Source of the DNA: Acuticoccus mangrovi | GTDB lineage: Bacteria > Pseudomonadota > Alphaproteobacteria > Rhizobiales > Amorphaceae | Direction of reading: 5' to 3' | Length of the DNA: 64,000 nucleotides | NCBI RefSeq assembly: GCF_016411865.1 | Contig: NZ_JAEKJA010000003.1 | Location: forward strand, 310,001 to 374,000 | Shown here: in pieces, positions 29,775-37,296 of the stretch | Position numbering within the stretch: position 1 is the first letter of the stretch | Layout: the number at the start of each line of letters is the position of its first letter | Position numbers and translations under genes: made by a program | The notes under the pieces: generated by a model | Told to the model about the DNA's origin: nothing | The model's input: the letters and a program-made list of their open reading frames with translations, nothing else | Databases searched by the model: none

Positions 29775-29856
29775 GAAATTGCTGCATGTCTAGGCGGCGT
29801 TGACGATTGAGCGAGCAAGGGCGCGAGAGACGCCCCTCGAGGAGCGAAACGACAGG

Positions 29857-30960
29857 ATGGACGACGGAGGAACGCTCCGGGCCAAGCCCGGACGGGAACG
29901 GGGCCGCAAGGGCCCGGCACGGCTGACGATCAGCGAGCTCGCCGCCCGCATCGGCGTGTCGAAGGGCACCGTGTCGCGCGCCCTCAACGGCTACCCCGAC
30001 GTGTCGGAGGAGACGCGCCGCCGCGTCCACGAAGCGGCGGCGATGCACGGCTATGCGCCGCTGTCCACCGCCCGCCGGCTCGCGACTGGCACCACCCGCA
30101 TCATCGGCATCGTGCGCGAGGCGCAGCCCGCCCCGATGAGCGAGGCCTTTCTGGGCGAGTTCATCGGCGGCGCCAGCGCGGCCCTCGCCGAGCGCGGCTA
30201 CGACCTCCTCTTCGCCACCCCCACCAAGGACGAGGCCCCCATCGCCTCCTACCGCCGCCTGCTCGACGAGGGGCGGGTCGACGGCTTCATCCTCTACCGC
30301 AGCGAGACCGACGATGCGCGCGTGCGCTGGCTGCGCGAGTGGGGCGCCCCGTTCGTGGTGCACGGCCGCACCCGCGACGAGTCCGGCTACGCCTGGCTCG
30401 ACACCGACAACATCGCCTCCTTCTACGACGCGACGACCCATCTCGCCGGGCTCGGCCATCGCCGCATCGCCATGGTCACCGGCCCCGAGCGCTTCAACTT
30501 CGTGCGCCTGCGCACGGTGGGCTACGTTCGCGCGATGGCCGAGATGGGGGTGCCGCCCCACCTCATCGCGAGCGACCTCTCGCCGCGCTCCGGCTATCTC
30601 GCGACGCGGGCGATCCTCGCCGGGCCGACGCCGCCCACCGCCATCGTGGCGATCACCGATGCGGTGGCTCTCGGCGTGATGCACGCCGCCATCGAGGCCG
30701 GCCTCGACATCCCGGGCGACATCTCCATCGTCGGCTGCGACGGCGTGGAGTCGGCCGCCTGGGCGGCGCGCCCCCTCACCACCATGGCCACCGAGAGCCG
30801 TCACGCCGGCGCGCGTCTCGCCGAGATGCTGCTCGCCCTCATCGGCGGCGCCGACCCCGACAGCCTGCACGAGATCTGGCGCGCTCACCTCCTGCGCCGC
30901 GCCTCCGACGCGCCGCCGCGCGCCCAAACACGCCAACGACAAACCGGGAGACCAGAATGA
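29857..30960 (+). CDS. LacI-family transcriptional regulator
   Basis: A 367-residue regulator. The helix-turn-helix is LTISELAARIGVSKGTVSRALNG (residues about 22-44). The rest is a periplasmic-binding-protein-like effector domain with typical features such as VDGFILYRSE, GHRRIAMVTGPE and DISIVGCDGVE. The Arg-rich stretch before the helix-turn-helix is longer than usual. I chose ATG 29857. A TTG at 29800 in the same frame would add 19 residues. Its stop overlaps the binding-protein start, and a LacI-type operator lies just upstream, so it is likely the local repressor. Confidence 0.92.
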   Translation: MDDGGTLRAKPGRERGRKGPARLTISELAARIGVSKGTVSRALNGYPDVSEETRRRVHEAAAMHGYAPLSTARRLATGTTRIIGIVREAQPAPMSEAFLGEFIGGASAALAERGYDLLFATPTKDEAPIASYRRLLDEGRVDGFILYRSETDDARVRWLREWGAPFVVHGRTRDESGYAWLDTDNIASFYDATTHLAGLGHRRIAMVTGPERFNFVRLRTVGYVRAMAEMGVPPHLIASDLSPRSGYLATRAILAGPTPPTAIVAITDAVALGVMHAAIEAGLDIPGDISIVGCDGVESAAWAARPLTTMATESRHAGARLAEMLLALIGGADPDSLHEIWRAHLLRRASDAPPRAQTRQRQTGRPE

Positions 30961-32327
30961 CCCAACGCGCCGACCGGCACGCCCTCAGAGGCACGACCTC
31001 GCGCTGTACCCTCGCCGCCCTCCTCTTCGCGGCCGGCCTCGGTGCGGCTCACGCCGACACGATCCGCTTCTGGACTCCGGAGGAGCAGCCCGAGCGCCTC
31101 GCCAAGACCCAGGAGGTGGCCGACGCCTTCAAGGAGGCGACCGGCCACACCGTGGAGGTGATCCCGGTGACGGAGACCGAGCTCGGCACCCGCGCCGCCG
31201 CCGCCTACGCCGCCGGCGACTTGCCCGACGTGATCTATCTGACGCTCCAGTATGTGCTCCCCTGGGCCGAGGACGGCATCCTCGACGTCGAGACCAACGA
31301 CGAGCTCGTCGACGAGCTCGGGCGCGACACCTTCGCCCCCGCCGCCCTCGGTATGGCCGACTTCGACGGTCTCACCGCCGCCGTCCCCTCCGACGGCTGG
31401 ACGCAGATGATCGTCTACCGCAAGGACCTCTTCGACGAGGCCGGCCTCGCCGCGCCGACCACCTACGACGCCGTGCTCGCCGCCATCGGCAAGCTGCACA
31501 ACCCGCCGGACATGTACGGCTTCGTCGCCGCCACCAAGGTCGACGAGAACTTCATGAGTCAGGTGCTGGAGCACGTCTTCCTCGCCAACGGGGTGACGCC
31601 GGTCGACAGCGACGGCTTCAAGCCGCTCGACGAGAAGAAGACCACCGAGGTGCTCGAATTCTACAAGGCCCTCGCCGACGCCTCCCCTCCGGGCGACCTC
31701 TATTGGGCGCAGTCGCGCGAGCTCTACTTCGCCGGCAAGGCCGCGATGATCATCTGGTCGCCGTTCATCCTCGACGAGCTCGCCGGGCTGCGCGACGCCG
31801 CCCCGGTCACGATCACCGACGATCCGACCACCGGTGAACTCGCCGAGAAGACCGGCATCGTCACCCGCTTCGCCGGCCCCTCCAACCCCGACGGCGCCGC
31901 CTGGGGCGACGTGCGCTATCTCGGCGTGACCGCCGACGCCAACACCGACGTCGCCATGGAGTTCGTCAAGTACGCCATGAGCGAAGGCTACGAGGCCACG
32001 CTGTCGATGGCGCCGGAGGGCAAGTTCCCCGTCCGCCGTGGCGACGCGGAGAACCCGACGAAGTATGTGGAAGCCTGGCGCGCGCTCCCCGTGGGCGTCG
32101 ACCGCAAGGCCCCGCTCACCGATCTCTACGCGCCGGAGACCATCGACGAGATCGTCGGCGGCCTCGACAGCGCCGCCCGCTGGGGCGTCAAGGAAGGCCA
32201 GCTCGCCCTCGCCTCCAAGATGATCAACAGCCAGGAGATCAACCGCGCCGTCCGCCGCTATCTCGACGGCGAGCAGGACGCGGCCGCCACCGTCGCCGAG
32301 ATGAACGACGCCCTGTCCAAGATCTGA
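30957..32327 (+). CDS. Sugar ABC transporter substrate-binding protein
   Basis: A 456-residue periplasmic binding protein of the extracellular solute-binding family 1, cleaved after AAHA. The mature protein begins DTIRFWTPEEQ and contains PDVIYLTLQYVLPWAEDG, ATKVDENFMSQVLEH and AGKAAMIIWSPFI, which match carbohydrate-binding members. The ligand cannot be read from sequence. The neighbouring GH63-like enzyme points to a small glucoside or mannoside. The start overlaps the LacI stop as ATGA and a good GGGAG ribosome binding site precedes it. Confidence 0.92.
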   Translation: MTQRADRHALRGTTSRCTLAALLFAAGLGAAHADTIRFWTPEEQPERLAKTQEVADAFKEATGHTVEVIPVTETELGTRAAAAYAAGDLPDVIYLTLQYVLPWAEDGILDVETNDELVDELGRDTFAPAALGMADFDGLTAAVPSDGWTQMIVYRKDLFDEAGLAAPTTYDAVLAAIGKLHNPPDMYGFVAATKVDENFMSQVLEHVFLANGVTPVDSDGFKPLDEKKTTEVLEFYKALADASPPGDLYWAQSRELYFAGKAAMIIWSPFILDELAGLRDAAPVTITDDPTTGELAEKTGIVTRFAGPSNPDGAAWGDVRYLGVTADANTDVAMEFVKYAMSEGYEATLSMAPEGKFPVRRGDAENPTKYVEAWRALPVGVDRKAPLTDLYAPETIDEIVGGLDSAARWGVKEGQLALASKMINSQEINRAVRRYLDGEQDAAATVAEMNDALSKI

Positions 32328-32386: not shown

Positions 32387-33682
32387 ATGACCGCCACCGC
32401 CGAGACCTCCGCCCGCACCTCCCGCGTCGGGCCGATCGCGCGGCGCGAGGCGCGTCTCGCCTATGCGATGCTGCTGCCGACGATCGCCATCGTGATGGCG
32501 ATCGTGCTGCTGCCGCTCGCCGCCAACATCTGGATCAGCCTGAAGCCGGTGGAGATCGCCGACCTTCGGCCCCCCGCCCTCCTCGCCAACGAGCGGCTGC
32601 GCGGCGATCTCGAGGCGGAGGGCGACGAGGGGCGCATCCAATACCGCCTGCGCAACTCCTCGCGCGACATCGCCCTTGCCGCGACGACCCTCACCGACAC
32701 GCTGCCCGACGGGCTGACGCCGTTCAACGTCGACCCGCGCTGCACCGTCGACGGGCGCACCCTCTCCTGCGATCTCGGCGCCTTCGGGCCCGGCGAGCGC
32801 GGCGAGGTCGAGATTCCCGTGCGGGCCGGCGCCGCCTATGTCGCCGATCCCGCGAACCCCCGCGACAGCGAGGCGCTCACCACCGCCGACGCGCCCAACG
32901 TCCTGACGAACCTCCACTTCACCTTCGACAACATCCGCGCCGTGTTCTCGTCCGACGAGTTCGTCAACGTGCTCGTGGTGACGATCGTCTACACCTTTTT
33001 CGGCACCGCCGGGGCCATCGTGCTCGGCGTCGCGGCCGCCCAGCTCCTCAACCGCGATTTCCTCGGCCGCCCGATCCTGCGCGGCCTCTACCTCTTTCCC
33101 TACGTGGCGCCGGTGATCGCGATGGCCTTCACCTGGCTCGTCCTCTTCGACCCCTTCTCCGGCTCCATCAACGCCATGCTGTCGCGCATGGAGGTGGTGG
33201 GCGAGCCGATCAACTTCTTCGGCACGCGGGCCGTGCCGGTCTCGATCTTCGGGCTCGAGTTCGGCTTTCCCCTCGCCCTCGCGATGGTGATCGCCTTCGA
33301 GGCGTGGCGCTACTTCCCGCTGTCCTTCCTGTTCATCCTCGCCCGCATGCAGTCGATCCCCACCGACATGTACGAGGCGGCGGACATGGACGGCGCCACC
33401 CCGTTCCAGAAGTTCTTCCGCCTGTCGCTGCCGCAGATCGTCGGCATCATCGCCGTCCTCTTCCTGCTGCGCTTCATTTGGACGTTCAACAAGTTCGACG
33501 ACATCTTCCTGCTGACGGGCGGCGCCGCCGGCACCCGCACCCTCACCGTCGACGTCTATTATCAGGGTTTCGCCATCGGTAATCTCGGCGCGGGCGCGGC
33601 GGTGGCGGTGGTCATCTTCGTGATGCTCCTCATCTTCGCCCTCCTCTACTTCCGCGCCCTGCCGAAGGAGGAGGGGTTGTGA
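32387..33682 (+). CDS. MalF-type ABC permease with a DUF11-like periplasmic insert
   Basis: A 431-residue permease with the MalF/UgpA fold and the EAA motif YEAADMDGATPFQKFF. Between helix 1 (ending NIWISLKP) and the usual LTNLHFTFDN element lies an extra segment of about 115 residues. It reads as a beta-sandwich of the DUF11 type (LTDTLPDGLTPF, CTVDGRTLSCDLGAFGPGE, then VEIPVRAG). E. coli MalF also carries a large domain in this loop, but of another fold. The ATG at 32387 has GAGGA nine bases upstream. An ATG at 32378 would add three residues but has no spacing. Its stop overlaps the next start as GTGA. Confidence 0.9.
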   Translation: MTATAETSARTSRVGPIARREARLAYAMLLPTIAIVMAIVLLPLAANIWISLKPVEIADLRPPALLANERLRGDLEAEGDEGRIQYRLRNSSRDIALAATTLTDTLPDGLTPFNVDPRCTVDGRTLSCDLGAFGPGERGEVEIPVRAGAAYVADPANPRDSEALTTADAPNVLTNLHFTFDNIRAVFSSDEFVNVLVVTIVYTFFGTAGAIVLGVAAAQLLNRDFLGRPILRGLYLFPYVAPVIAMAFTWLVLFDPFSGSINAMLSRMEVVGEPINFFGTRAVPVSIFGLEFGFPLALAMVIAFEAWRYFPLSFLFILARMQSIPTDMYEAADMDGATPFQKFFRLSLPQIVGIIAVLFLLRFIWTFNKFDDIFLLTGGAAGTRTLTVDVYYQGFAIGNLGAGAAVAVVIFVMLLIFALLYFRALPKEEGL

Positions 33683-34962
33683 GCGTCGCGACGGATCACG
33701 CCGGGCCGGCTCCGGCGACACGCCGCGAGGCGATCCGCACCCCGGTCCCGGGCTGGCTCGTCGCCGCGCCGATGGGCCTCTTCTGGGGCTTCGTCCTGCA
33801 CATCGTGGGCGGCGTGGCGCTCACCCTCGTCACCGGCGTGGCGATGACGCCGGCGGCCGGAGCCGCGGGGCTCGCCGGCCTCGTGACGGCCCTCCTCATC
33901 GCCTGGCGCCCGGTCGCCGAGCGCACTCTCCCCTTCCTCGTGGTCGCCGGCGCGGTGTTCCTGGTGGTGCTCTTCGCCGCCGCCTTCGCCGCCCCCTACA
34001 CGGTGGGGCTCGGCACCGCCCCCGTCGGCGAGGCGGTCGTGCTCGCCCTCACCGCGGCGGGGCTCGTCGCGACGCTCGCGGTGTCGCTGAAACCCTTGAC
34101 CCTCGGCCGGCAGAGCCGCCGCACCACCGAGACGGCGCTCGCCGCCTCCCTCGGCATCTTCGGCCATCTCTTCTTCGCCGCCATCGTCGTCCTGCCCTTC
34201 TACGTGCTGCTGATGACGAGCTTCAAAACCCAGCAGGCGCTGATCGCGAACCCGCTCGACCTGTCGATCGACCTTTCCAAGGGGCTCGGCCTCTTCACCT
34301 CCTACCTGGAGCTCTTCACCACCTACGACTTCGGCCGCTACATGCTGATCTCGTTCGTGGTCTCCTCGGCGACGGTGCTCATCTGCCTCGCCTTCGCGGT
34401 GCCCGGCGCCTACGCCGTGGCGCGGCTCGACTTTCCCGGCCGCCAGCCGCTGTCGCGCTCGATCCTGCTCATCTATCTGGTGCCGGCGATCGTGCTGGTG
34501 ATCCCGCTCTACGCCGTGTTCTCCCAGCTCGGGCTGCGCAACTCGCTCGTCGGCCTCCTCATCGTCTACCCGGCGACCACGCTGCCGGTGGCGATCTACA
34601 TGCTCGCCGGCTACTTCCGCGGCGTGCCGCGCGAACTCGAGGAAGCCGGGCTAATGGACGGGCTGACGCGGCTCGGCGTCATCCGCCGCATCACGCTGCC
34701 GCTCTCGCTGCCGGCGCTGACCTCGGTGGGCCTCTACGTCTTCATGATCGCGTGGAACGAGTTCCTGTTCGCCTTCATGTTCCTCGACGATCCCAAGATC
34801 TTCACCCTCTCCCGTGCGGTGGTGTCGCTCAACTCCTCGGAGGTGCCGCGGCAATATCTGATGGCGGGGGCCGTGGTGACAACGATACCGATCCTCTTTC
34901 TGTTTCTTCTAGCGGAGCGTTTCATGGTGAAGGGTCTGACGGCCGGAGGGGTGAAGGGATGA
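33679..34962 (+). CDS. MalG-type ABC permease with extra N-terminal helices
   Basis: A 427-residue MalG-family permease. The C-terminal 270 residues are standard, with the EAA motif EEAGLMDGLTRLGVIRRI. The first 150 residues are an addition with about four hydrophobic segments (for example GLFWGFVLHIVGGVALTLVTG and FLVVAGAVFLVVLFAAAFA), making a protein of about ten helices where MalG has six. The GTG start overlaps the previous stop. The extension may stabilise the complex with the partner permease, which is also enlarged. No frameshift is visible, so the extension appears real. Confidence 0.9.
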   Translation: MSVATDHAGPAPATRREAIRTPVPGWLVAAPMGLFWGFVLHIVGGVALTLVTGVAMTPAAGAAGLAGLVTALLIAWRPVAERTLPFLVVAGAVFLVVLFAAAFAAPYTVGLGTAPVGEAVVLALTAAGLVATLAVSLKPLTLGRQSRRTTETALAASLGIFGHLFFAAIVVLPFYVLLMTSFKTQQALIANPLDLSIDLSKGLGLFTSYLELFTTYDFGRYMLISFVVSSATVLICLAFAVPGAYAVARLDFPGRQPLSRSILLIYLVPAIVLVIPLYAVFSQLGLRNSLVGLLIVYPATTLPVAIYMLAGYFRGVPRELEEAGLMDGLTRLGVIRRITLPLSLPALTSVGLYVFMIAWNEFLFAFMFLDDPKIFTLSRAVVSLNSSEVPRQYLMAGAVVTTIPILFLFLLAERFMVKGLTAGGVKG

Positions 34963-36233
34963 TGGCAAGTCCCGCCGAGCGCGACACCGAGGCCGCCGCG
35001 ATCCTCGCCGCCAACGACCGCGGCGGCTTCTCGGTCCCCACCAAGGGCCTCTATCCGTTCCAGTGGAACTGGGACTCCGCCTTCGCCGCCATGGGCTACG
35101 CCCACGCGAGCGGCGAGCGGGCGGTGCAGGAGCTCCAGTCGCTCGTCGCCGGCCAGTGGCCGAACGGCATGATCCCCCACATCATCTTCCACCGGCCCGA
35201 TCCGGGCTACTTCCCGGGGCCTGAGGTGTGGGAGACGGCGATGACGCCGCCCACCTCCGGCATCACCCAACCGCCGGTGCTCGCGATCGCGATCGCCGCC
35301 CTCGCCGATCGCGGCGTCCTCGCCGGCGAGCGCCTCGCCGATCTCCTCGAGGCGGCCGACCGCTCCCACGCCTTCTTCTTCGAGGCGCGGCGCGACCCGG
35401 CGACCAACGTCGTCGGCGTGGTGCACCCCTGGGAGTCCGGCCGCGACAACATGCCGGACTGGGACGACGCGCTCGCCGCCGTCGACGCCTCCAAGGTCAA
35501 GCCCTTCGTGCGGCGCGACACCAGCCACATCGACGCCGCCATGCGCCCCACCAAGGAGCAGTACGAACGCTATATCGCCCTCGTCGAGTTCGGCATCGCG
35601 GTGGGGTGGGACCAGCGGCGCATCATGGTCGAGGGACCCTTCTTCGTCGGCGATCCCGGCATCGCCGCGGTGCTGGTGCGGGCCGAGCGCGAGCTGCAGC
35701 GCCTCGCCCGCACGATCGGCCGCGACGATCTCGGCGGCAACGTCGACGTGCGCCTGCCTGCCCTGTGCGATGGTCTGGAGGCGCTGTGGAGCGACGCCCT
35801 CGGCGCCTACACCACACTCGATCTTCGCACCGGCAAGCGCGGCGAGGCCGTCTCCTCGGCGAGCTTCCTGCCGTTCGCGGCAGGCGTCGTCGACGCGGCG
35901 CAGACCGAGCGCCTCAACGCCCACTTCGATCGTCTCGCCGCCCGCTGCCGCTACATGGTGCCGAGCTACGATCCCGACGCCCCCACCTTCGACGAGAAGC
36001 GCTACTGGCGCGGGCCGGTGTGGCTCGTCGTCAACTGGCTGATCGCGCTGGGCCTCGCCGAGACCGGCGACGCGGCGCGGGCGGAGCGGGTGCGCGGCGA
36101 TTCCCGCGCCCTCGTGGAGGCCGGCGGCTTCTACGAATATTTCAGCCCGCTCACCGGCGCGCCGCTCGGCGGGGCGGACTTCACCTGGACGGCCGCCGCC
36201 TGGCTCGACTTCGCGCGAGGCACCGATGGCTGA
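34959..36233 (+). CDS. GH63-like glycoside hydrolase (glucosyl-/mannosylglycerate hydrolase type)
   Basis: A 424-residue (alpha/alpha)6-barrel glycosidase without signal peptide, so it acts in the cytosol on imported substrate. Motifs include GLYPFQWNWDSAF, HPWESGRDNMPDWD (candidate acid Asp163), RRDTSHIDAAMRPT, YWRGPVWLVVNW, and GFYEYFSPLTG with candidate base at about Glu393. The pattern resembles mannosylglycerate and glucosylglycerate hydrolases, which release a hexose from the compatible solute. Trehalase-like action remains possible. It starts at ATG 34959, overlapping the permease stop, and sits inside the transporter operon. Confidence 0.8.
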   Translation: MMASPAERDTEAAAILAANDRGGFSVPTKGLYPFQWNWDSAFAAMGYAHASGERAVQELQSLVAGQWPNGMIPHIIFHRPDPGYFPGPEVWETAMTPPTSGITQPPVLAIAIAALADRGVLAGERLADLLEAADRSHAFFFEARRDPATNVVGVVHPWESGRDNMPDWDDALAAVDASKVKPFVRRDTSHIDAAMRPTKEQYERYIALVEFGIAVGWDQRRIMVEGPFFVGDPGIAAVLVRAERELQRLARTIGRDDLGGNVDVRLPALCDGLEALWSDALGAYTTLDLRTGKRGEAVSSASFLPFAAGVVDAAQTERLNAHFDRLAARCRYMVPSYDPDAPTFDEKRYWRGPVWLVVNWLIALGLAETGDAARAERVRGDSRALVEAGGFYEYFSPLTGAPLGGADFTWTAAAWLDFARGTDG

Positions 36234-37296
36234 GATCACCCTCGAGGCCATCACCAAGTCGTTCGGCCTCGTCGAGGTCATCAAGGGCGTCGATCTTCGC
36301 ATCGCCGACAAGGAGTTCGTGGTGTTCGTCGGCCCGTCGGGCTGCGGCAAGTCCACCATGCTGCGCCTCATCGCGGGCCTCGAGGAGGTCACCACCGGCA
36401 AGGTGATGATCGACGGGGAGGACGTCACCGCCCTCTCCGCCCCCGAGCGGGGCCTGTCGATGGTGTTCCAGTCCTACGCCCTCTACCCTCACCTTACGGT
36501 GCGCGAGAACATGGGCTTTCCGCTCTCCGTCGCCGGCGCCTCCAAGAAGGAGATCAAAGCGGCGGTGGACGACGCGGCGGCCGTGCTGCGGCTCGAGCCG
36601 CTGCTCGAGCGCAAACCCAAGGATCTCTCCGGCGGCCAGCGCCAGCGCGTCGCCATCGGCCGCGCCATCGTGCGCGCCCCGTCGGCCTTCCTGTTCGACG
36701 AGCCCCTCTCCAACCTCGACGCGGCGCTGCGGGTGCAGATGCGCATCGAGATCGCCCGGCTGCGCGCCAAGCTCGACGCCACCATGATCTACGTGACCCA
36801 CGACCAGGTGGAGGCGATGACCCTCGCCGACCGCATCGTGGTGTTCTCGGCCGGCAAGATCGAGCAGATGGGCGCGCCGCTGGAGCTCTACCGCAACCCG
36901 GCGAACATCTTCGTGGCGACCTTCATCGGCTCGCCCACGATGAACATCCTCGATTGCGATCCCGCAGCCGACGGCGCCGTCATGGTCGGGGCGACCACGC
37001 TCAGCACCGAGCGCAGCGTGGCGGACGGCGCGGTGCCGAGCAAGCTCGGCATCCGCCCGGAGGACATCGCGCTCGTCGAGGACGGCGGCGCCGACTTCAC
37101 CGGTACCGTCGCCGTCGCCGAGCATCTCGGCGGCGACAGCTTCTACTATGTGGAAGTGCCGGGGGTCGGCGAGATCACCGTGCGCGCGCCGGGCGATCAC
37201 GTGGCGAAGACCGGCGAGACGCTGCACCTCACCGTCCGCCGCGACAACATCCACCTCTTCGACGCGCACGAGCGCTGCATCACCCGCGCCCCCTGA
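36226..37296 (+). CDS. UgpC/MalK-type sugar ABC transporter ATPase
   Basis: A 356-residue ATPase that energises the preceding permeases. Walker A GPSGCGKST, Q-loop QSYALYPH, signature LSGGQRQRVAIGRA, Walker B FLFDEPLSNLD and H-loop VTHDQ are all present. A C-terminal MalK-type regulatory domain follows (KLGIRPEDI, then GDHVAKTGETLHLTV). It starts inside the end of the glycosidase gene, 8 bases before that gene's stop. It is the last gene of the operon, with a hairpin after it. Confidence 0.95.
   Translation: MAEITLEAITKSFGLVEVIKGVDLRIADKEFVVFVGPSGCGKSTMLRLIAGLEEVTTGKVMIDGEDVTALSAPERGLSMVFQSYALYPHLTVRENMGFPLSVAGASKKEIKAAVDDAAAVLRLEPLLERKPKDLSGGQRQRVAIGRAIVRAPSAFLFDEPLSNLDAALRVQMRIEIARLRAKLDATMIYVTHDQVEAMTLADRIVVFSAGKIEQMGAPLELYRNPANIFVATFIGSPTMNILDCDPAADGAVMVGATTLSTERSVADGAVPSKLGIRPEDIALVEDGGADFTGTVAVAEHLGGDSFYYVEVPGVGEITVRAPGDHVAKTGETLHLTVRRDNIHLFDAHERCITRAP

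Follow-up and report, generated by a model that had tools for sequence, protein, structure and literature searches.

What is the segment of about 115 residues that a MalF-type sugar permease of Acuticoccus mangrovi carries between its first membrane helix and its conserved core, where does it come from, and what could it do in the transporter? The gene lies in a stretch of 64,000 nucleotides (the window; contig NZ_JAEKJA010000003.1, positions 310,001 to 374,000). An initial annotation, made from this sequence alone, had read the segment as a DUF11-like domain gained by the transporter, of a different origin from the P2 loop of E. coli MalF and analogous to it in docking the binding protein. 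In the parts of the MalF literature drawn on here, P2 comprises residues 91-271, a segment of P2 directly contacts MalE (PMC3150292), and MalF-177 lies within ~5 Å of MalE-31 (PMC3328499). The features of the locus are collected in Table 1, in which the permease is named permease F, its membrane partner permease G and the solute-binding protein SBP.

Table 1. Features of the permease F locus, in coordinates of the window
Feature	Position	Strand	Evidence
LacI-family regulator	29800..30960	+	Pfam
SBP, presumed partner of the domain	30957..32327	+	SBP_bac_1 8.6e-21; tblastn match in 80/80 loci
Permease F, MalF-type membrane subunit, 434 aa	32378..33682	+	ORF reading; BPD_transp_1 at aa 213-423
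TM helix 1	32450..32542 (aa 25-55)	+	Hydropathy (hydrophobic segment to ~58); helix 19-55 in model
Entry linker KPVEIADLRPP, conserved	32543..32575 (aa 56-66)	+	K56, P57, L63 in 77/77; R64 in 76/77
DUF11/CLIPPER-type beta-sandwich domain	32576..32890 (aa 67-171)	+	Pfam, profile-profile, model, Foldseek, reverse search
Cys122, invariant, putative disulfide partner	32741..32743	+	77/77 rows
Cys131, invariant, putative disulfide partner	32768..32770	+	77/77 rows
Exit linker APNVLTNLHFTFDN, runs into TM2	32891..32932 (aa 172-185)	+	L176 73/77, T177 74/77, F181 76/77, N185 77/77
Permease membrane core TM2-TM6	32954..33658 (aa 193-427)	+	Pfam, profile against PDB relatives, hydropathy
Permease G (MalG-type), N-terminal extension of ~160 aa	33679..34962	+	Pfam; MalG model begins at aa 164
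MGH1-like glycoside hydrolase, likely glycosylglycerate hydrolase	34959..36233	+	PF22422 2.2e-103; NF047898 324.5 bits; start inferred from permease G overlap
ABC ATPase, UgpC/MalK type	36226..37296	+	UgpC model 454.3 bits against cut-off 432

Architecture of permease F

The BPD_transp_1 domain (PF00528) of permease F scored 54.6 bits (1.5e-14) against a Pfam cut-off of 26.4, and the same domain was found at E<=0.01 in all 46 full-length permease F proteins, which marks them as type I ABC sugar permeases. The nearest NCBIfam models were UgpA (82.7 bits) and MalF (67.1 bits), both under their cut-offs, and among solved structures the profile best matched the SugA-type permeases 7cad and 8ja7, and MalF. 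Hydropathy analysis gave six hydrophobic segments, one at aa 25-58 and five within aa 195-431, and none in aa 58-180 (maximum KD19 0.73). Because the latter region is non-hydrophobic with a net charge of -9 and the N-terminus has a charge of +3 (aa 1-27), the positive-inside rule would place aa 58-180 in the periplasm. The ~115 additional residues between helix 1 and the core are real, since 17 no-insert permeases of related genomes, selected by a match that begins no earlier than query residue 163, reach only 279-318 aa and have no space for such a domain. In the closest relative among the matches listed (L002:1501-2802, 82%), roughly the seventh matched codon is an in-frame TGA, a stop that hints at a true start of permease F a few codons further downstream than 32378.

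Assignment of the insert to the DUF11 family

DUF11 has been renamed CLIPPER, with 9IFR as its structure (Costa et al. 2025, PMC12617251), and the part of that paper considered here describes the family as an Ig-like sandwich of seven to nine strands, usually used as a module of surface stalks. The DUF11 pattern described in the initial annotation, LTDTLPDGLTPF, CTVDGRTLSCDLG and PGERGEVEIPV, is present in the insert of the 434-aa reading frame. Scored singly, the query insert reached 14.1 bits (E=0.06) with DUF11 (PF01345), under the Pfam gathering score of 24.6, and a PF01345 search of the A. mangrovi genome at E<=10 gave no match, permease F included; detection of the domain from this single sequence thus fails. 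The evidence comes instead from the family, and is strong there. The query insert was aligned with 76 homologous inserts (77 rows), taken from the best 80 loci after three were dropped as identical to others (L032, L039 and L050, to L004, L006 and L007) and one for a faulty start (L047); a second alignment combined the query with 45 of these 76 homologues. DUF11 was matched by 62 of the 77 inserts at E<=1 (best 8.3e-9), and the related DUF7933 by 59. When nine further inserts were scored singly, DUF11 was seen in six and exceeded the gathering score in one, one insert passed DUF7933 (27.5 bits against a cut-off of 26.5), and a SAR116 insert gave no match to DUF11 or to another family. The insert of Thalassospira lucentensis (L034) reached 36.2 bits over profile positions 7-109 of 114, passing the DUF11 cut-off of 24.6. 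At the level of full-length proteins, DUF11 was matched at E<=0.01 by 20 of 46.

Comparison of profiles agreed with this result. With hhalign, the insert profile matched 23 DUF11 domains from 14 genomes at 95.9% (E 5.4e-9, 78 columns), and nine decoys (eight column-shuffled and one reversed) all stayed at <=0.5%. The reverse search of 398 phylum genomes with the insert profile gave 16 strong and 16 weak places (E 7e-9 to 7e-4). Twenty strong loci, pooled from the class and phylum genome searches, all align with permease F at 45-100% identity, one of them being the query itself. Fourteen of the 16 weak places had loci, and the ten that were scanned exceeded the Pfam cut-off for DUF11 (nine) or DUF7933 (one); L168, L170 and L176 overlap known PF01345 places, and L177 is a repeat beside L167. 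A sequence search of PDB chains with the insert profile gave two chance matches only, to augmin subunits (E 0.59 and 1.4), and did not retrieve 9IFR. The insert is a DUF11-type domain with more than chance agreement, on evidence that comes from the family and goes beyond the query sequence alone.

The predicted fold points the same way. In the AlphaFold2 model of full-length permease F, the domain is an eight-strand sandwich whose block-averaged pLDDT is 92-96 over aa 71-160 and falls to 80 and 88 at its edges, and the domain modelled alone has the same strands at a mean pLDDT of 84.6. Eight strands of at least three residues were counted in both models, within the seven to nine of the family description. 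Of the two findings that the initial annotation had named as refuting its reading, a lack of any DUF11 or beta-sandwich match and a prediction of the segment inside the membrane, neither was encountered, as the match is there and the segment is not hydrophobic. Its domain span of 32546-32900 was right in location, the modelled boundaries lying slightly inside it. Beyond aa 180 the permease was modelled poorly (pLDDT block means of 32-73 over aa 181-434), so that the orientation of the domain relative to the membrane is not usable from the model. In Foldseek searches of the PDB, 9IFR was the top match of the full model (E 1e-4, TM 0.63 by target); with the domain alone it came second (E 5.2e-4; TM 0.62 by target, 0.59 by query), behind the carbohydrate-binding 3ndy. 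Many other Ig-like folds nearly equalled 9IFR, and one was better with the domain-only model; the fold alone is therefore insufficient to name the family, and it is sequence and fold together that name DUF11. The insert shares with DUF11/CLIPPER the Ig-like sandwich, the family motif and the Asp of tDtlP (D107), with one copy over the Pfam cut-off. In contrast to the stalk domains of surface proteins, which are often in tandem, it is a single copy inside a six-segment permease.

Conserved residues of the insert

The insert alignment has eight invariant columns, and the membrane-adjacent linkers are among its most conserved parts. The two invariant cysteines are spaced as C-x8-C in 67 of the 77 inserts, and no other Cys occurs in any of them, which fits a putative periplasmic disulfide, Cys122-Cys131. 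Four of 23 surface-type DUF11 domains have the same spacing, as do nine domains in a set of 14 counted by eye (four of these nine from one genome). The pair is therefore not peculiar to the permease and was probably inherited along with the domain, although it is invariant in the permease F inserts and present in only some of the surface domains.

Domains of the CLIPPER family can also be held by an isopeptide triad of Lys-Asp-Asn, which is stated in the part of PMC12617251 considered here as not universal in the family. The triad Asp corresponds to D107, judged by eye from motif and spacing, and is kept in 76 of the 77 inserts. Lys was found in columns 67-76 in only 17 of 77 rows (<=15 at any one column), with no Lys in aa 58-180 of the query, and Asn at the expected columns 161-172 in <=4 of 77 rows at any column. 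Further on, N174 is present in 67 rows, 15 of which combine it with a Lys in columns 67-76. Since neither the Lys nor, at the expected columns, the Asn is conserved, a conserved isopeptide bond is excluded for the inserts as a family, and single rows may still have one; the inserts differ in this from the adhesin CLIPPER domains with their isopeptide Lys. Other fixed residues are E72 (76/77), R90 (77/77) and R92 (75/77), which, more speculatively, may form a charged core.

Distribution, origin and selection

A scan of genome contigs confirmed at least 445 relatives of permease F, and the best 80, which were kept, all match across the insert (query residue <=31 to >=413). By title, these 80 are mostly from Alphaproteobacteria (Rhodobacterales, Rhizobiales-type genera, Thalassospira and SAR116), and they include Leucothrix and two MAGs labelled Thiotrichales and Betaproteobacteria. 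The insert profile matched in 8 of 289 class genomes and 25 of 398 phylum genomes. The insert segment is 127-137 aa long in all 89 aligned homologues, each of them selected by a match that begins ahead of residue 40; two others were no-insert paralogues of <=40% identity, and no orthologue without the insert was seen among the relatives examined. In a quick tree of insert-removed cores, with 23 insert-bearing rows (of 90 aligned), 17 no-insert permeases and 3 MalF, all 23 insert-bearing rows fell on one side of a branch with a support of 100, at which, by a warning of the program, long branches meet. Apparently, the insert was gained once and early by the permease F clade. The gain proposed in the initial annotation is thereby retained, but it is better read as one old event in a clade than as an acquisition by this transporter.

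The insert is under purifying selection at a near-constant length. Of nine pairs of sequences, two were saturated for the insert and seven had finite dS; in these seven, some of them near saturation, dN/dS was 0.08-0.33 for the insert and 0.00-0.17 for the core, with the insert value higher in every pair. The insert was also the fastest of five segments by mean p-distance (0.583), followed by permease G (0.394), the ATPase (0.347), SBP (0.275) and the membrane core (0.249).

Operon and likely substrate

The gene order LacI-SBP-permease-permease-glycosidase-ATPase recurs across the loci of relatives. By tblastn (E<=1e-20, anywhere in the stretch), SBP was found in 80 of the 80 loci, permease G in 79, the ATPase in 75, the MGH1-like hydrolase in 70 and the LacI regulator in 59; some of the misses are contig ends, and the ATPase of L102 lies off the operon. 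The extension of permease G (33679-34160) has hydrophobic stretches and no Pfam match, and is covered by the tblastn match in many relatives. A like order of regulator, SBP, two permeases, glycosidase and ATPase is known from the AglEFGAK alpha-glucoside importer of Sinorhizobium, whose glycosidase AglA belongs to GH13, in contrast to the MGH1-like enzyme found here.

This enzyme gives the main hint to the substrate. The hydrolase of three plasmid-borne relatives, annotated there as 'hypothetical protein', scored 314-360 bits against the glucosylglycerate hydrolase model (NF047898), similar to the query in Table 1; all four scores are below the curated cut-off of 550, so that the specificity may be for gluco- or mannosylglycerate or another compound. 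A glucosylglycerate hydrolase is reported from mycobacteria. In the Limimaricola locus, the operon adjoins a glycerate kinase (L181:3912-5189; DUF4147 and MOFRL over the cut-off, the glycerate 2-kinase model under it) and an AGE-family epimerase (L181:1536-2756). Relatives of the kinase were found in 4 of the 80 loci and relatives of the epimerase in 6, one of which was scanned and matched the D-mannose isomerase model below its cut-off; most of the 80 loci have neither neighbour. From the hydrolase match together with the kinase and epimerase neighbours, we infer that the pathway could comprise glycosylglycerate import, hydrolysis and glycerate phosphorylation, which hints at glucosyl- or mannosylglycerate as substrate.

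Several loci deviate in their gene content. For example, no recognised hydrolase lies between permease G and the ATPase in L034, L071, L075, L087, L088 and L103, though the contig continues. L057 encodes a GAK-system CofD-like protein (L057:742-1920; TIGR04357, 506.4 bits), whose cluster of similar proteins also takes in L074 and L090; a relative of the glycerate kinase is present in each of the three loci. A minus-strand reading frame of ~600 aa occurs in seven loci; in L082 (2536-4386) it is upstream of the LacI gene, and neither NCBIfam (1e-10) nor Pfam (1e-4) gave a match for this copy.

Comparison with MalF P2 and possible function

Permease F and E. coli MalF (PDB 2R6G and others) have several features in common. 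Both are type I permeases with a large folded periplasmic domain in the loop preceding the permease core, and both have an SBP partner and a UgpC/MalK-type ATPase. However, none of the six hydrophobic segments found in permease F corresponds to the additional helices at the N-terminus of MalF (MalF_N_TM), and P2 belongs to another domain family. In the MalF control, MalF_P2 (PF14785) was detected at aa 100-260, ahead of the permease core, with 209.4 bits; PF14785 was absent from the families matched by the 77 inserts at E<=1. The hhalign comparison of the insert profile with MalF P2 gave 0.1%, using nine of eleven MalF sequences (L153 was left out for a wrong frame, and L152 was missed by the cutting pattern), and no MalF chain was among the 50 matches listed in each Foldseek search with either model. 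Homology of the insert to MalF P2 is rejected on the Pfam, hhalign and control results. Despite the same location, the insert is without detectable sequence kinship to P2, and the different origin that had been supposed at the outset is supported.

Since the loop that bears P2 in MalF carries an unrelated sandwich here, a docking arm is the simplest explanation, and by this analogy we see an even chance that the domain of permease F docks the binding protein. The locus as a whole is best explained as a type I ABC sugar importer, with LacI regulator, SBP, permeases F and G, glycosidase and ATPase, in which permease F apparently took up the Ig-like domain of DUF11/CLIPPER type in its periplasmic TM1-TM2 loop in a single early event. 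The domain would stand in the periplasm on two conserved linkers. In place of the isopeptide bond known from adhesin CLIPPER domains, a Cys122-Cys131 disulfide would stiffen it, and as a P2-like arm it could contact SBP and keep SBP above the permease pair. Imported glucosyl- or mannosylglycerate would then be cleaved intracellularly by the co-encoded hydrolase. The full scenario, in which an importer captured a domain of an adhesin-stalk family and independently reinvented the P2 docking arm, with a disulfide replacing the isopeptide bond, we hold to be tentative and slightly short of even. The existence of the 17 no-insert paralogues means that the domain is not needed for docking as such.

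Covariation was examined with a mirror-tree analysis of 53 loci (all subunits readable, of the 77 rows) and the query. With the other subunits accounted for, the partial correlation of insert divergence was 0.494 with the ATPase, 0.194 with permease G and 0.175 with SBP, the last being reached in 2 of 1000 label permutations. Covariation of insert and SBP is weak, and there is no strong SBP-specific co-evolution. This speaks against docking, as do the rapid change of the insert relative to the other segments and its higher dN/dS. The excess of the ATPase over SBP would suit a structural brace, in which the domain packs on permease G or clamps TM1-TM2 and stabilises an unusual heterodimer with no contact to SBP. 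Such a role would also agree with the extra N-terminal membrane segments in the extension of permease G, a protein matched in 79 of the 80 loci, and with the conserved membrane-adjacent linkers. However, permease G shows hardly more partial covariation with the insert than SBP does, and a free-standing sandwich of ~105 residues would extend beyond the need of a brace, and we consider this role unlikely.

The appearance of cellulose- and chitin-binding domains among the Foldseek matches, including 3ndy, raises the question of whether the domain serves as a carbohydrate-binding module near the permease, with the sugar substrate or a wall glycan as its ligand. This is quite improbable, because these matches share the Ig-like fold only (8-17% identity), no such family recurs in the 77 inserts (Glyco_hydro_5_C in one), and a conserved surface aromatic platform is missing: Y89 is kept in 75 of 77 rows, but W136 in 29 and Y154 in 40. 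We also give little credence to contact with another periplasmic partner (peptidoglycan, an outer-membrane porin or a lipoprotein) by which the importer would be placed. The usual use of DUF11 domains in surface stalks (PMC12617251, in the part considered) speaks for it, but the largest cluster of non-operon neighbours comprised only seven loci (reading frames of at least 150 aa, with shadow frames displacing some real genes). Finally, that the segment is a tolerated passenger with no function of its own is hardly tenable, since, although it evolves faster than the core, its length is kept in 89 of 89 homologues, eight columns are invariant, dN/dS is 0.08-0.33 (seven pairs), and no orthologue lacking it was seen.

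Conclusion

In conclusion, permease F carries a DUF11-type domain in the loop preceding its core, where it may act as a docking arm for SBP. Full-text searches for this architecture in a mostly open-access literature gave no DUF11/CLIPPER domain in an ABC permease among the matches listed, and no such case is given in the part of PMC12617251 considered here. A P2-like arm and a CLIPPER domain are each known, and their combination appears to be undescribed. The domain places DUF11/CLIPPER outside surface fibres, in a widespread uptake system that probably serves glycosylglycerate osmolytes, and the insert-bearing bacteria include strains of Thalassospira, Roseibium, Martelella and Ruegeria. To the best of our knowledge, most work on MalF P2 concerns one transporter, so that the purpose of P2 is difficult to address. 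Another domain in the P2 location, unrelated to P2 in sequence, would allow one to ask whether such arms are general docks for SBPs. If the reinvention of a docking arm holds true, type I importers would have arrived at P2-like arms repeatedly and by convergence.
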